A DNA stretch of 64,000 nucleotides from Acidobacteriota bacterium (GCA_019639175.1 JAHBSK010000003.1:124001-188000); one strand, 5' to 3'; shown: positions 22,519-55,554, counted from the stretch's first letter. Translations and numbers: made by a program. The notes: generated by a model from the letters alone, not told the origin.

Positions 22519-22603
22519 TTCTAACAGTTAAAAGTGGTTCAGTTACCAATTTATAGTTCCATAAACTATCAACTAAAAACTCTTCCACTATTAACTGTTA
22601 GAA
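22519..22603. repeat. Long inverted repeat after the copper cluster
   Basis: Two 19-bp arms (22519-22537 and 22585-22603, starting TTCTAACAGTTAA and ending TTAACTGTTAGAA) match at 18 of 19 positions around a 47-bp AT-rich loop that contains ATAAACTATCAACTAAAAACT. It could terminate the copper operon, but there is no T-run. It resembles the other AT-rich dispersed repeats here. Confidence 0.6.
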
Positions 22604-31411: not shown

Positions 31412-33526
31412 CTATTCAGGCTTCCTGGCCCTGGTCGGAGCGGGCCGTGAACTGTCGCTCGATTTTGACGATCCCGACGAAGGAGCCGACTTTTGCTGCG
31501 GCGGGGACGACGGCTTTGACGGAGCCGAAGGCCGCGGCTGGCTCGGAGCCGTCCGCTGTGTCGGCGGCGTGCTAGGCCGTGACGGAGCCGAAGGCCGCGG
31601 CTGGCTCGGCGTTGTCCGCTGTGTCGGCGGCGTACTCGGCCGTGACGGAGCCGTTGGCCGTGAAGGCTGCGGCGTCGTCTTTGGGGCCTGAGGCCGTGAC
31701 GTTGTCGGCGGCGTGCTAGGCCGTGACGGAGCCGTTGGCTGCGAAGGCCTCGGCGTCACGAGCGGCGGCGACTGATTAGGCCTGTTAGCTGCCGGCGGTG
31801 TTTTTGGCACCGTCGTCGGCCTGGCCGTCGTGTCGCGTTTCGGCTGTTCGGGAACCACAGGCGTTCGCGGCGGCAGCACGGCGATCGGCGGCGTTTCCCG
31901 TGTCACCTCAGGACGCGTCTTTCCGGCATCAGGCCGGGAGACCGCACCTGTTCGCGGCTGAGCAGGAGGTTCCGCTATCGGCGGCGAGGTTCGCGGCGTC
32001 GTCTGCAGCGGCGGCCTGTTGCCGAACATACGCGAATTTCGCAGTTTGTCATCCAGCGGAGCATTCTCCGTTCGCGAAGCGGCCCCTGTCCTCGAAGTAT
32101 CGACAGGCCTTGTCACAAGCGGTTTTTCGGGCCTGATATCCTTGCTTATGGTGTCACCGATCTCGCGTCGCGTCGGCAGCAGAGGCGGTGAATTAGCGAT
32201 GACCCTGTCATTTCCAACAACCTCGCGGGCCGTTGTATCGGGCAAACGCGTCATCGAGCCTCGATCCCTGCCAAAGCGGTCCTTTGGCGTCGATATCATT
32301 CCCCTGACCGGCCCCTGATCGAGCGGCGGGACACGATTGCCCGCCCGCCTTTGGCCGGTTATGTCAGGCGTCGGCTGAGGCACAACCTGTGTCGGCCTGT
32401 TCCGCCTGTCGCCGCGGCGTCGGGCTTCCTGATGCCGGCGGTTATAATTGTAATAACGGCGGTTGTACGGAAGCGGATACCAGCACACATTGTTGTTATA
32501 GACCGTCATCACGACCAGCGCCGGACGCCACCAGCTTCGTGTCGTGCGGTAGTAGCCATACGGCGACCATACCCAATAACCGTTGTGCCAGAACCAGCGT
32601 CCGTGATGATACGTCGCCCAGCCCCAAGGCTCGTCATTGACCCACGTCCAGCCAAATGCCGGTAGCCAGCGCCATTGTCCGTAGCGATACGGCGACCAGT
32701 CGCTGTATGTGCTTACCGCCCGCGAAGACGGACGCCAGACATAGCCGTAGTCCAGTGTGTGCATCCAGTCGCCGTAATTCCCTAGGTCTTCGGCTCCGTA
32801 AATATCGCGGTCATAATATTCGTCATAACGAGCGTTCGCCAAACGCTGTTCGGTCATCCGTTCGCGGTCAAGCGACCATGAATCAAATTCATCGTTCAGG
32901 CCGGCAAAATCGCTGAGTTCCCATTCGCCCGCGTTCCTGCCGTCGGTAAAGACCCTGGCAGTACGTCCGTCGCGAAGCGTAAAGCCCGACGTGGTCGAAT
33001 ACACGCGTGCCTCTCCGCCTTCGCTGACGCTGATGCTGACGCCGTCAAATTCACCGCCGCCCGCGTCCAGCCGGTATCGGCCCGCAAGCTGCATGGCGAC
33101 CGTTGCCTTTGGCAGATCGACCTCAAAGAACTCTGATCCCGCGTCAAATTCCAGCAGGCGAACGGCCATCATCCCTTCGGACAGGCTCAGGGCAATGCCT
33201 TCATCGTTTATCAGCGTCATGCGGAGATATGAATTTTCGGAGATGCGGACGTGTTTGTGGCTGGCAAGCTGTATCTCGTATCTGGCGCCCGGCCCGGCGG
33301 CTATCTCATCGCCTTCCACAACAGGGAGGTTCATGACCGCCTTTTCCCACTCGTCAGAATCGGCGCGCTTTATCTGAACATCGCCGGAAAGATCGCTTAT
33401 GCGGGCAACGCGGTCCGTCACATCGGGAATATCCTCATCCTCCGGTGAATAACCGAACGCGGCACCGGCAGCGAGCATTACGACCGACAAAATAAACGGA
33501 ATTGTTCTGGTTTTTAACGACAGCAT
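31412..33526 (-). CDS. FecR-domain / DUF6600 protein with long Pro-rich tail
   Basis: A 704-residue exported protein with signal sequence. Residues about 40-200 form a FecR-type beta domain (ISDLSGDVQIKRADSDEWEKAV, GDEIAAGPGARYEIQL). Residues about 245-350 are a Trp/Tyr-rich DUF6600 segment (GYVWRPS, YRYGQWRWLPAFGWTWV, GWATYHHGRWFW, GYWVWSPYGYY). The remaining half is disordered, and residues about 615-690 are tandem PSAPSRPSTPP-type repeats. It probably lies at the cell surface and binds polymers or the wall. GGGAGG precedes the ATG. Function is unknown. Confidence 0.75.
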   Translation of the reverse strand: MLSLKTRTIPFILSVVMLAAGAAFGYSPEDEDIPDVTDRVARISDLSGDVQIKRADSDEWEKAVMNLPVVEGDEIAAGPGARYEIQLASHKHVRISENSYLRMTLINDEGIALSLSEGMMAVRLLEFDAGSEFFEVDLPKATVAMQLAGRYRLDAGGGEFDGVSISVSEGGEARVYSTTSGFTLRDGRTARVFTDGRNAGEWELSDFAGLNDEFDSWSLDRERMTEQRLANARYDEYYDRDIYGAEDLGNYGDWMHTLDYGYVWRPSSRAVSTYSDWSPYRYGQWRWLPAFGWTWVNDEPWGWATYHHGRWFWHNGYWVWSPYGYYRTTRSWWRPALVVMTVYNNNVCWYPLPYNRRYYNYNRRHQEARRRGDRRNRPTQVVPQPTPDITGQRRAGNRVPPLDQGPVRGMISTPKDRFGRDRGSMTRLPDTTAREVVGNDRVIANSPPLLPTRREIGDTISKDIRPEKPLVTRPVDTSRTGAASRTENAPLDDKLRNSRMFGNRPPLQTTPRTSPPIAEPPAQPRTGAVSRPDAGKTRPEVTRETPPIAVLPPRTPVVPEQPKRDTTARPTTVPKTPPAANRPNQSPPLVTPRPSQPTAPSRPSTPPTTSRPQAPKTTPQPSRPTAPSRPSTPPTQRTTPSQPRPSAPSRPSTPPTQRTAPSQPRPSAPSKPSSPPQQKSAPSSGSSKSSDSSRPAPTRARKPE

Positions 33527-41782: not shown

Positions 41783-41790
41783 AAAATTTC

Positions 41791-41857
41791 GGGCAGAAAC
41801 GCGAGTGTGAACGAGCGTGCCGCTTTGCACACTCCCTGACGGTCGTGTTTCTGCCTC
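41791..41857. repeat. Palindromic element copy A, between two sufU starts
   Basis: Outer arms GGGCAGAAACGCGA and TCGTGTTTCTGCCT, then inner arms GAGCGTGC and GCACACTC, form a two-step hairpin. The unpaired spacers (GTGTGAAC and CCTGACGG) show it is inverted relative to copies B (52945-53025) and C (53187-53255). It is sandwiched between the two copies of the sufU 5' end. Confidence 0.85.
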
Positions 41858-52348: not shown

Positions 52349-52441
52349 AGATGACCAAACCGACCAAAGTGACAGAAAGGGAAACTCGCAAACTTTTGTC
52401 CTTTGTGCCCTTTTGGTCACTTATGTCATTTTTGCGAGTTG
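52349..52441. repeat. GACCAAA/GTGAC hairpin repeat at the end of the M1 gene
   Basis: AACTCGCAAA (about 52382-52391) pairs with TTTGCGAGTT (52432-52441), and GACCAAA and GTGAC units occur on both sides inverted. It includes the M1 stop codon; with the T-run at the far side it could also terminate that gene. Confidence 0.55.
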
Positions 52442-55400
52442 AATTTTCGCCTTATCTTCGCGGCGCGTTCGATGGTGTCTGCGTTTTCAAGAATTTTCAG
52501 CCGCAGATCGTTGTCGAGGTTCGGATTGTCGGCGAGGAATTTATTGATGATGTTCAACGCCTCTTCGCTGCGCTGGCCGCCGATGAATGCGCCAAGCCAG
52601 CCGTTGACAAAAAATATCTTGCGATTCGCCTTGTGGTTCGGCAGTTCTTTCAACGAGCGTTCCAGATAAGGCAGCGTCAATGCCGAATGCCTGATCGAAT
52701 TCCACGGCCCGAACGCCGCCTCGATCCAGCTTTCCGAAATATCTTTGTTCTCCGTAAAGTCTTTCCAGTATTTCGCCTTGTTCTCTGCCGTCGCAATACC
52801 CGCACGCGCCGCATAAGCCCAACGCTTGGCATCGTCTGAGGTTTCTGTCTTTTCAAGCTCCGCAAGCAGCTTTTCTCCTTCCGGATCGCCAAGAATAATT
52901 AGCCGTGTAACGATATCGAATTTATCTTTGGTCCTGATCGGCACAAAGGCGGAAACGCGACCGTTAGGGAGCGTGCCTTCGGGCGCCCGACCAGCACGCT
53001 CGTTCACACTCGCGTTTCCGCCTTTGGTTTCTCCGCGGCTCTGCGTCTCTGCGGTGAGTATCTCTTTCAGCACTTTTCGGGCATTCTCGCTCGACGCAAC
53101 ATTCAAAAACGCCCTGTAATAAGTGATCCGCCGGCCTTGCGTTTCGGCGTTCTGCATACGTTCGATCAGCATATTCTCTACACGTTCGGGCAGAGACGCG
53201 ACTGTTAAGGAGCGTGCATCTTTTGCACGCTGGTTCACACTCGCGTTTCCGCCCGCAGATATTGATGTGTCAATGTAGTAATTCATCGCCGTTCCGACAC
53301 GGCTGAGAAGCAGCGCCGTCGTCGATTCGTCCTCTATGTTCGGAGTACCGCCTTTGTTTTTAGTGCCGCCTTTAGGCGGCTGCCGGCTGAAGCCGGGACT
53401 CAAAACACGCACCACCAACTCTACATATTCACGCGGATCAAGCTCGCCCTCGCGGACGCTGTCCCAAAACGCGCCCCATATCATGCTTCTGATGAATGGC
53501 TCATCAACAGTGGCAATGTTTTTAAGAAAGTACTTCTGACTTTCTTTATCAAGCAAAAATATGCCGTATCCAAAATCACCTTGGTTTGGAATAACAAATT
53601 TAGGTCGGCGCGGAACCCGCGGGTATTTTGTAGGCCCTGCAGAAATATTTCCAGCCCAGAAAATACGAGCGTCTAGCGGATCTTGGCGTTTAGTTGTTGA
53701 TGCTGGAGGTTCCGGTGTCGAATCAAATACCGACGGATGAACATAGAAACGCTCCCCATCACCACCACCAATATTGCCGAAAGAAACCGTTAGAAAACGT
53801 TGGTCCCAGTAGGTTCCGGTGTTTAATATATCTGACTGCTTCATTACTATTATCATTCTATCCGTGCCGGAAGGGCTCGATAGAAAGACTTCGTTATTCA
53901 CACTTACTCTAATAAGGGGCAGACCGGGTCTCTTGACCCAAACATCCGCCCACTTTTTGAGATCCTTTTTACTCGCCAATTCAAACTCACTGACCAGATC
54001 TTCCCAACCCGCATTCGCGTACTCATGCTTCTTCAAAAACACTCGGACGGCGGTTTGGAATTTATCTTCACCCAGATAGAATTCCGCCTGCCGGAGAAAC
54101 GCCGGGGCTTTGTTATAGACGATGTTGCCGTAGGCGGATTTTGCGGCGGAGAGGTTCTTTATCTCCTGATAGATCGGTGTTGTGCCTTTTGTGGAATCGG
54201 TGCGGTAGGCGGCCTGTTTTACACGCTCGTAAAAGACCTTCCAGGCGTTTGCCTCGGGCATTATCTTTTCGAGCGCTTTGTAGGCGGCAAAGTTTGCAAA
54301 GCCCTCTTTCAGCCATAGGTCGTCAAACCATTTCATCGTCACCGTATCGCCGAACCATTGATGAGCCGCCTCGTGAAAGATCAAAAGCGCCCGCGAAATA
54401 TGGTCGTTCGCCGTCGGCTCCTGCGGAAAGATGATGCTCGATTCTCTGAGGAAAGTCGCCCCGGCGTGCTCCATCCCGCCAAACGGAAACTCCGGTATCA
54501 AGACCAAGTCGTATTTTGAGAACGGAAATTTGTAGTCAAAATACTCCTCAAAAAACTTCACTGCTTCCCGATTAAGCCGAAAAACCTCCGCGGCATGCGG
54601 CCTAAACTTTTCCGCCTGCGACTTGCGGACATAGATGGAAGTAAGCGGATTCGCCCGGTCAGAACCGGGAGCGATAGCGACCGGGTTCTTCCCACTCTGT
54701 GCAGCCCGGAACCCAGTCGCTATCGCTCCCGGTTCTGACTTTGGCTCCGACACCTTCTCAAACGGCCCCGCCGCGAACGCGAAGACGTATGTGCTGATGG
54801 GTTGGGTTTCCTCAAAAGAGATAAATTTACCCCAAGTGCTTGAAGAGGTGAGCATTAGCGGTGTATTCGAGATAGCTGTCCAATCAGTCGGGAAATCTCG
54901 TCTGTTCGGACCAGTGAAATTCACGCTGAGTGTAAACAGCGCCTTCAAATCCGGCTGGTCAAACACCGGAAACGCTGTGCTGGCATCTGACGGGACAAAG
55001 AGCGAGTAGATATATTCGCTGCCGTCTTCTTTGTCGATGTATCGCGTTATCGCCGAACCGCTGGTCAGTATCGGCGATGTGAAATCGAGCTTGATGACGT
55101 TCTCGCCCGCAACCACTCCGTCGCGGAAGATGAGATGTTCTGAATACTCATGATATGTATTCGGAGTGTCGATCTGAAGTATGCCTGCCGCAATAGGCTT
55201 TTCACCATTGATTTCGACATTGGTTACAGTTGATCTCTCCTCATGCCCTTTTATCTTTCGCCAGTCAAGTATGATTGGCGGGACAGGCCCGGTCGCTATC
55301 GCTCCCGGTTCTGACTTATTCTCCCTTACTCCCTTACTCCCCGACTCCTCCACTTTCACACGTATCTCAATGCTGCCTTTCAGCACCGGCGACATCTTTT

Positions 55401-55554
55401 CGAGCGTCAGGTTCAGCTTGTAGCGAACGTCCGAATAATGAACGGCACGCCATTGGGCAAGTTCCTTCGAAACGCCCGGTTCTATCGGCGGCATTTGTGA
55501 AAACGCTGCGGCTGAGGTGCATAAAATTACCAGCAAAAGGCCTTTTATCGACAT
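52426..55554 (-). CDS. Secreted M1-family aminopeptidase with repeat-derived in-frame inserts
   Basis: A 1042-residue exported zinc aminopeptidase. The signal sequence is MSIKGLLLVILCTSAAAFS. Substrate loop is GGMEHAG (359-365), zinc motif HEAAH (394-398) and third ligand Glu417 in LKEGFANF; all catalytic parts are intact. The length exceeds the usual 850-900. Repeat-coded segments account for this: residues 72-89 and 272-299 (SEPGAIATG type), about 718-738 (PGFSRQPPKGGTKNKGGT), about 767-790 and 843-870 (GGNASVN types) with a GCAGAG-type neighbour. All keep the frame. Function is inferred to survive because the active site and remaining core are normal. Confidence 0.87.
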   Translation of the reverse strand: MSIKGLLLVILCTSAAAFSQMPPIEPGVSKELAQWRAVHYSDVRYKLNLTLEKMSPVLKGSIEIRVKVEESGSKGVRENKSEPGAIATGPVPPIILDWRKIKGHEERSTVTNVEINGEKPIAAGILQIDTPNTYHEYSEHLIFRDGVVAGENVIKLDFTSPILTSGSAITRYIDKEDGSEYIYSLFVPSDASTAFPVFDQPDLKALFTLSVNFTGPNRRDFPTDWTAISNTPLMLTSSSTWGKFISFEETQPISTYVFAFAAGPFEKVSEPKSEPGAIATGFRAAQSGKNPVAIAPGSDRANPLTSIYVRKSQAEKFRPHAAEVFRLNREAVKFFEEYFDYKFPFSKYDLVLIPEFPFGGMEHAGATFLRESSIIFPQEPTANDHISRALLIFHEAAHQWFGDTVTMKWFDDLWLKEGFANFAAYKALEKIMPEANAWKVFYERVKQAAYRTDSTKGTTPIYQEIKNLSAAKSAYGNIVYNKAPAFLRQAEFYLGEDKFQTAVRVFLKKHEYANAGWEDLVSEFELASKKDLKKWADVWVKRPGLPLIRVSVNNEVFLSSPSGTDRMIIVMKQSDILNTGTYWDQRFLTVSFGNIGGGDGERFYVHPSVFDSTPEPPASTTKRQDPLDARIFWAGNISAGPTKYPRVPRRPKFVIPNQGDFGYGIFLLDKESQKYFLKNIATVDEPFIRSMIWGAFWDSVREGELDPREYVELVVRVLSPGFSRQPPKGGTKNKGGTPNIEDESTTALLLSRVGTAMNYYIDTSISAGGNASVNQRAKDARSLTVASLPERVENMLIERMQNAETQGRRITYYRAFLNVASSENARKVLKEILTAETQSRGETKGGNASVNERAGRAPEGTLPNGRVSAFVPIRTKDKFDIVTRLIILGDPEGEKLLAELEKTETSDDAKRWAYAARAGIATAENKAKYWKDFTENKDISESWIEAAFGPWNSIRHSALTLPYLERSLKELPNHKANRKIFFVNGWLGAFIGGQRSEEALNIINKFLADNPNLDNDLRLKILENADTIERAAKIRRKFNSQK
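52945..53025. repeat. Palindromic element copy B, in frame in the M1 gene
   Basis: 16-bp perfect outer arms (AAAGGCGGAAACGCGA and inverse), inner GAGCGTGC/GCACGCTC, length 81 bp = 27 codons. It codes GGNASVNERAGRAPEGTLPNGR. Same orientation as copy C, opposite to copy A. Confidence 0.9.
53031..53055. repeat. GCAGAG short-period repeat, copy 3, in frame in the M1 gene
   Basis: CTCCGCGGCTCTGCGTCTCT and following bases code TAETQSRGE on the minus strand, abutting copy B of the palindromic element. Confidence 0.6.
53187..53255. repeat. Palindromic element copy C, in frame in the M1 gene
   Basis: Outer arms CGGGCAGAGACGCGA and TCGCGTTTCCGCCCG (13 of 15 pair), inner AGCGTGCA/TGCACGCT, length 69 bp = 23 codons. 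It codes GGNASVNQRAKDARSLTVASLP. Confidence 0.88.
53343..53402. repeat. Double-hairpin REP-like element in frame in the M1 gene
   Basis: GCCGCCTTTAGGCGGC (53365-53380) and CCGGCTGAAGCCGG (53383-53396) are adjacent perfect hairpins, framed by GAGT/ACTC. It codes SPGFSRQPPKGGTKNKGGT, which reads as a Pro/Gly-rich surface loop. Confidence 0.82.
54658..54741. repeat. Long palindromic element in frame in the M1 gene (SEPGAIATG type, full)
   Basis: Two 30-bp arms (54659-54688, 54709-54738) match at 29 of 30 positions around a 20-bp loop, a very stable hairpin. It codes SEPGAIATG, then AAQSGKN, then PVAIAPGSD. One arm recurs at 55288-55317. Confidence 0.93.
55288..55341. repeat. Half copy of the long palindromic element plus short-period repeat
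   Basis: 30 bp at 55288-55317 match the right arm of the element at 54658-54741 with one difference and code SEPGAIATG. It is joined to GGAGTAAGGGAGTAAGGGAG-type units on the minus strand, which code SGSKGVREN. In frame. Confidence 0.85.

Follow-up and report, generated by a model that had tools for sequence, protein, structure and literature searches.

The extra segments of an M1 aminopeptidase of an Acidobacteriota bacterium are very probably intragenic REP/REPIN elements, mobilised by RAYTs (REP-associated Y1/HUH tyrosine transposases) and persisting in frame in surface loops of the enzyme. The gene lies in a 64,000-nucleotide stretch of genomic DNA (JAHBSK010000003.1:124001-188000; hereafter, the window), for which an initial annotation had proposed that the aminopeptidase is longer than its family norm and that five repeat-coded, frame-preserving segments account for the excess.

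Results

The M1 aminopeptidase carries five repeat-coded inserts in frame

The open reading frame contains the Pfam-type domains M1_N, Peptidase_M1, and ERAP1_C, and its predicted fold (AlphaFold model; mean pLDDT 78) matches EryP and M. tuberculosis AmpN, of 859 aa each. Both the HExxH-(18)-E zinc site and the GxMEx exopeptidase motif are present, and the catalytic residues (HEAAH, 394-398; E417; Y480; GGMEH, 359-363) are intact, as the initial annotation had stated, with the key positions invariant in the alignment. The proposed excess length is likewise borne out: the protein has 1042 aa, and its complete same-genus orthologues have 965-1109 aa, vs. 852-889 aa in class out-groups.

When aligned with out-group M1 proteins, each of the five segments proves to be an insert; that is, gaps in the out-groups coincide with all five segments, and repeat-free homologues do not carry the same segments ungapped. 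Loop lengths at the insert places are near-constant in 13 out-group proteins (from other Acidobacteriota, Gemmatimonadetes, Planctomycetes, and others) and vary widely in the in-group; the loop that holds insert 1, for example, has 27 residues vs. 7 in most out-groups, the alignments being approximate inside long inserts. In the AlphaFold model, segments with pLDDT<50 (residues 73-88, 274-301, 724-738, 766-785, and 840-868) match the five inserts and are almost without regular structure. The further low-pLDDT stretches are residues 13-19, at the end of a signal-peptide-like helix, and the variable residues 597-645, the sole other sizeable one, which may hold an old F1 remnant (Table 1). We conclude that, in the predicted structure, the inserts lie in surface loops of the aminopeptidase.

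The five repeat-coded segments are real: most are copies of genome-wide repeats, and they are absent from the out-groups. Their earlier description as, in each case, a palindrome or short-period repeat stands as regards repeat origin and can be refined for two inserts: insert 1 consists of a single F1 arm and a short GGGAGTAA-type tract, with no palindrome pair, and insert 3 is of F5, a separate short-hairpin family that occupies the same site in L168, L175, L186, and L188. Insert 2, in the linker joining the N-terminal and catalytic domains, is a REP doublet with arms (I2) that are 97% complementary over 31 bp, and folding gives its hairpin in the coding mRNA −68.2 kcal/mol. Inverted arms I4, 85% complementary over 33 bp, likewise constitute a REP doublet, and a second REPIN hairpin, also an inverted doublet, folds at −59.2 kcal/mol.

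Table 1. Features of the M1 aminopeptidase gene and an intergenic REPIN, in window coordinates
Feature	Residues (aa)	Position	Strand	Description
CDS, M1 aminopeptidase, insert host		52426..55554	(-)	1042 aa ORF; signal-peptide-like N terminus
HEAAH zinc motif	394-398	54361..54375	(-)	intact; E417 codon at 54304-54306
Insert 1	72-89	55288..55341	(-)	short GGGAGTAA-type tract and one F1 REP arm
Insert 1, F1 REP arm		55288-55315	(-)	GTCAGAACCGGGAGCGATAGCGACCGGG; read SEPGAIATG
Insert 2	272-299	54658..54741	(-)	complete F1 REPIN; two inverted REPs, 54658-54688 and 54709-54739, 20-nt spacer; read SEPGAIATGF...NPVAIAPGSD
Insert 3	718-737	53343..53402	(-)	F5 short-hairpin repeats CCGGCTTCAGCCGG, GCCGCCTAAAGGCGGC; read SPGFSRQPPKGGT
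Insert 4	767-789	53187..53255	(-)	F3/F2 REPIN, GGCGGAAACGCGAGTGTGAACCAGCGTGC ... inverted partner; read GGNASVNQRAKDARSLTVASLP
Insert 5	834-870	52944..53055	(-)	F3/F2 REPIN preceded by CAGAGACGCAGAGCCGCGGAGA tract; arms 52944-52976 and 52994-53026; read GGNASVNERA...GTLPNGRVSA
Candidate old degenerate F1 remnant	612-620	53690..53730	(-)	TPEPPASTT; resemblance to SEPPASAGG only
Intergenic F3 REPIN		41790..41855	(+)	same family as inserts 4 and 5; inverted arms 41792-41818 and 41829-41855

The repeats are REPs and REPINs with a GNCRGA(A/T) head

The F1 arm occurs in 40 genome copies (≤3 mismatches) and the F2/F3 arm in 14, with 0 copies of the reversed control in each case; the repeats are therefore not single-copy. 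Identical 27-mers are common to unrelated genes and intergenic DNA, with zero in controls, and copies occur genus-wide (40 of 41 genomes). The REP unit consists of a head, GNCRGA(A/T), and then a 20-nt hairpin, which in the four families folded has a 4-bp stem, a 2x2 internal loop, a 2-bp stem, and a tetraloop; the internal loop is made of G-A mismatches in most families, and the loop is GNNA-like. A structure-only scan of 780 kb detected 26 hairpins, where random sequence gives 0-1. Each of the 26 has a GNCRGAR-type head (GNCRGAA in 25), the head not having been a search criterion. The units are thus short palindromes, within the 20-40 nt of REPs, in many genome copies, and those of F1 and F3 are paired in opposite orientation, as doublets that form a larger hairpin. 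From this inverted pairing we conclude that F1 and F3 have the anatomy of REPs and REPINs. At its foot the palindrome has GNCRGA(A/T), with no GTAG tetranucleotide, and there is no CGTC tag at one end, which places the elements in neither the GTAG nor the CGTC superfamily; Rfam holds no family matching the repeats. Filled loops start and end exactly with GTCAG...CTGAC (e.g., L170 and L180 at M1 site 4).

The genome was covered by sequence searches and by 780 kb examined in stretches, together with the DNA flanking F1 and F2 copies. A loose arm definition gives ~20 chance matches per 780 kb; with the tightened definition, the count is 53 vs. 3-9. Plain 14-mer counting over 380 kb exposed the repeat families poorly, and a nearness search in a plasmid collection found nothing. 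Both arms of the F3 REPIN outside the M1 gene (Table 1; C15:165792 and C15:165829) are intergenic. The window also has direct repeats (D1; 31496-31757, spacing 63-81 bp) and 40-nt inverted arms that are 78% complementary and 5 nt apart (I1; 22519-22603).

About half of the F1 copies lie within genes

With genes called by our own simple hexamer caller (86% coding), 22 of 42 F1 copies are intragenic, 19 are intergenic, and 1 is at an edge; almost all F2 copies are intragenic. The predominantly extragenic location of REPs is thus not seen here. We treat that location as a usual, not a defining, feature of REPs, because intragenic REPs have been accepted as REPs (PMC3733652). Since coding DNA makes up 86% of the genome, F1 is depleted per kb in genes, where its density is about five-fold lower than between genes, a pattern that loss of most insertions would produce. 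When one copy per genome was taken from 30 genomes, 10 were coding, 6 were at an edge, and 14 were noncoding.

Coding copies of F1 are read as VRTGSDSDR or SEPGAIATG, never in the TAG frame, and coding copies of F3 as GGNxxxxE or AETRPLGSV, never in the TAG-stop frame. The host proteins, identified by Pfam, include AspRS, LysRS, GltX, ValRS, asparagine synthase, carbamoyl-phosphate synthase (carB), P-type ATPase, acyl-CoA dehydrogenase, MutS2, carboxyltransferase, saccharopine dehydrogenase, NAD(P)H-hydrate dehydratase, and MmeI. A single Pfam match spans the insert in several hosts (e.g., tRNA-synt_1c, 3-326, with an insert near residue 159).

An MmeI-type restriction-modification gene (L110; G000:C21:119179-119463) has several F3 arms, mostly tandem with a 42-bp period, that read GGNATVRERAKSET and lie between the target-recognition and C-terminal domains. 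Two REP arms, of the different families F3 and F1, stand in frame in the gene for an FAD-dependent, kynurenine 3-monooxygenase-like monooxygenase (L083; G000:C16:265691-267175). Beside REPINs, genes such as that of ValRS (L109; G000:C18:220717-223647) contain other short-period inserts, among them ETGDRRQETGD (in ValRS) and IPHSAFRIPQ; in-frame repeat DNA thus seems to have a second source in such inserts.

Cognate RAYTs are flanked by the same REP families

The window's own genome has seven Y1_Tnp genes (Pfam). One of them, at G000:C16:73846-74358, has F1 repeats on either side; it scores 28 bits with Pfam Y1_Tnp, above the cut-off of 23, and 24 bits with NCBIfam REP_Tyr_transpos, below the cut-off of 80. 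The Y1_Tnp domain with an HUH motif and a single catalytic Tyr, together with the REP flanks, places it among RAYTs, and most members of its clade keep NHVHVV and CNYVNNEQGD-type motifs. Among 30 relatives of this F1 RAYT in the genus, which belongs to the Pyrinomonadaceae, 19 have inverted superfamily REPs on both sides, vs. 0.4% of random positions, the 19/30 being approximate and rather a lower bound, with several loci cut by contig ends and windowed imperfectly (one such RAYT, L240, is flanked by REPs on both sides in the genus-wide survey).

The flanking REPs are of types CCGGGAGCGATAGCGACTGG (F1a), CCACCTGCGGTAGCGGGTGG (F1b), CCGCCTGCGTAAGCGGGCGG (F1c), GCCCGCACGTAAGTAAGGGC (F4), and ACACGACCGGTAGGGAGTGT (F3). 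In the RAYT tree, carriers of F3 (100/97), carriers of F4 (91/81), and most carriers of F1a (97/87) form clades by REP family, and neither F1b nor F1c carriers are monophyletic. The families that flank RAYTs in the genus are the families that code M1 inserts in various species. Cognate RAYTs are found for F1a, F1b, F1c, F3, and F4 in the genus and for F1 only in the window's own genome, where F3 is without a clear cognate RAYT, its REPs lying only 5' of a RAYT that has different hairpins at its flanks. No RAYT association was seen here for F5 and F6, which are short hairpins of other types.

The RAYTs L090 (G000:C16:43.3-43.9 kb) and L087 (C20:113.1 kb), both above the NCBIfam REP_Tyr_transpos cut-off, were considered as owners of F2/F3 and dropped, their flanks being mostly other, perfect hairpins (GGAGGCTATGCCTCC, GGCGGCAAGCCGCC), which suggests further REP families.

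Different families occupy the same loops in different species

Across the compared genomes, mostly MAGs (Pyrinomonadaceae/Blastocatellia), six M1 loops are either empty or occupied by F1, F3, F4, F5, or F6 elements, two or more families being represented at nearly every site. At site 2, the F1 REPIN seen here has an F3 REPIN as its counterpart in the nearest relative, G014; site 5 shows the reverse, with F3 here and F1 in G014. The six loop intervals, which make up 18% of the protein, contain 72 of the 74 in-group M1 F1/F3 arms, a figure that counts inherited insertions repeatedly and is no probability. Many other M1 loops remain free of elements. The ValRS loop at aa 213-246 behaves similarly: it contains F3 here, F1 in both G009 and G006, and an F5-like element in G012, and eight congeners retain the ancestral length of 10 residues.

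Discussion

We propose that a RAYT copies single-stranded REPINs into new sites, and that REPINs borne by genes would survive only if the reading frame is kept, if one of the two stop-free frames is used, and if the site is a surface loop. The stop-free frames would yield peptides rich in Gly, Ser, Pro, Ala, Glu, and Arg, such that a translated REPIN would form a flexible linker, roughly 18-40 residues long, that is present in the mature protein and nearly neutral. Across species, tolerant loops would then gain a REPIN, stay empty, or be filled anew by REPINs of another family.

The initial annotation had likened the inserts to Rickettsia palindromic elements (RPEs) and had suggested an undescribed class of coding mobile repeat. 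The likeness holds, the in-frame palindromic inserts being comparable; of the suggested class, the repeat-derived, in-frame, loop-borne character is upheld, and the novelty of kind is not, F1 and F3 being of the known REP/REPIN kind, with cognate RAYTs. A separate class of coding mobile repeat, RPE-type or another MITE, unrelated to REP/RAYT, would account for in-frame palindromes in many unrelated host proteins, as for RPEs (PMC10969869), but is very improbable, in that the units are REP hairpins of ~28 nt, arranged as inverted doublets on the flanks of their own RAYT genes, whereas classical RPEs are ~150 bp (PMC10969869), RPEs being set apart here by description. Ordinary fast-evolving, low-complexity loops, in which slippage and convergent codon usage would make the likeness between genes coincidental, would accommodate the short-period character of some adjoining inserts, such as ETGDRRQETGD in ValRS, but not the identical 27-mers in unrelated genes and intergenic DNA with zero in controls, the 85-97% complementarity of arms over 31-33 bp, or the exact element boundaries, and we give this explanation almost no credence.

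The REPINs could also be under selection rather than simply tolerated, having been domesticated either as linkers or as translation-tuning mRNA hairpins. Repeated filling of the same loops by different families, and a −68 kcal/mol hairpin within coding mRNA, could point to domestication; however, many congeners have empty loops, lengths vary widely, and coding copies are depleted per kb vs. intergenic copies, which fits tolerance, and domestication appears unlikely. Also rather unlikely is an extension of the reading as RAYT-mobilised REPINs persisting in loops: coding DNA may be a true REPIN niche, with opened loops preferentially re-targeted by other RAYT/REPIN families and interchangeable linkers supplied to core enzymes. 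The coding fraction comes into question as a niche because two of three REP frames are open and encode flexible, hydrophilic linkers.

REPs are extragenic by name, and the reported intragenic cases are scattered. In P. fluorescens SBW25, 14 of 1,067 16-mers overlap genes (Bertels and Rainey, 2011; PMC3116915). The elements described here are like that REPIN/RAYT system (PMC3116915) in having inverted REP doublets, hairpin units, a RAYT between its own REPs, and within-genome families, but about half of the F1 copies are in genes, and the head is GNCRGAA in place of the GTAG foot. A 2013 study described intragenic REPs, in what it called 'REP-decorated proteins', from Opitutus terrae, R. conorii, Thauera, and further bacteria, including O. 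terrae uvrA with two insert positions per gene and different REPs at about the same recB site in two Xanthomonas species (PMC3733652). The same work counted RPE-4 and RPE-6 as CGTC REPs, reported CGTC REPs, including some RPEs, without transposase-gene association, and noted tyrosine transposases in other Acidobacteria (PMC3733652). Those GTAG and CGTC REPs and the present ones are alike in that REPs and dimers are read in frame in many proteins; here, in contrast, the REP superfamily and the phylum are other, and a set of RAYT-linked families takes turns in the six loops of a single enzyme across ~25 species (cf. PMC3733652). With RPEs the present elements share palindromic repeats in frame in unrelated proteins (PMC10969869); unlike RPEs and CGTC REPs, they have cognate RAYTs. 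A literature search, of partial coverage, found no description of palindromic inserts in Acidobacteria or Pyrinomonadaceae, and what we have not found described is the acidobacterial GNCRGAA superfamily, its high intragenic share, and the turnover of several families in fixed loops across a genus.

Because the system spans ~40 species in a single genus, with several RAYT-linked REPIN families and more than one host protein, it allows loop-by-loop comparison that includes empty loops. The rate at which mobile repeats become protein sequence, the positions that accept them, and whether filled loops draw more insertions are thereby directly testable. The finding also explains odd peptides that recur in this group's proteins, such as SEPPAVAGG, PPATAGGSD, GGNPSGSEG, LPTGRVSA, and KPAREQG, which will disturb annotation, alignments, and phylogenies.
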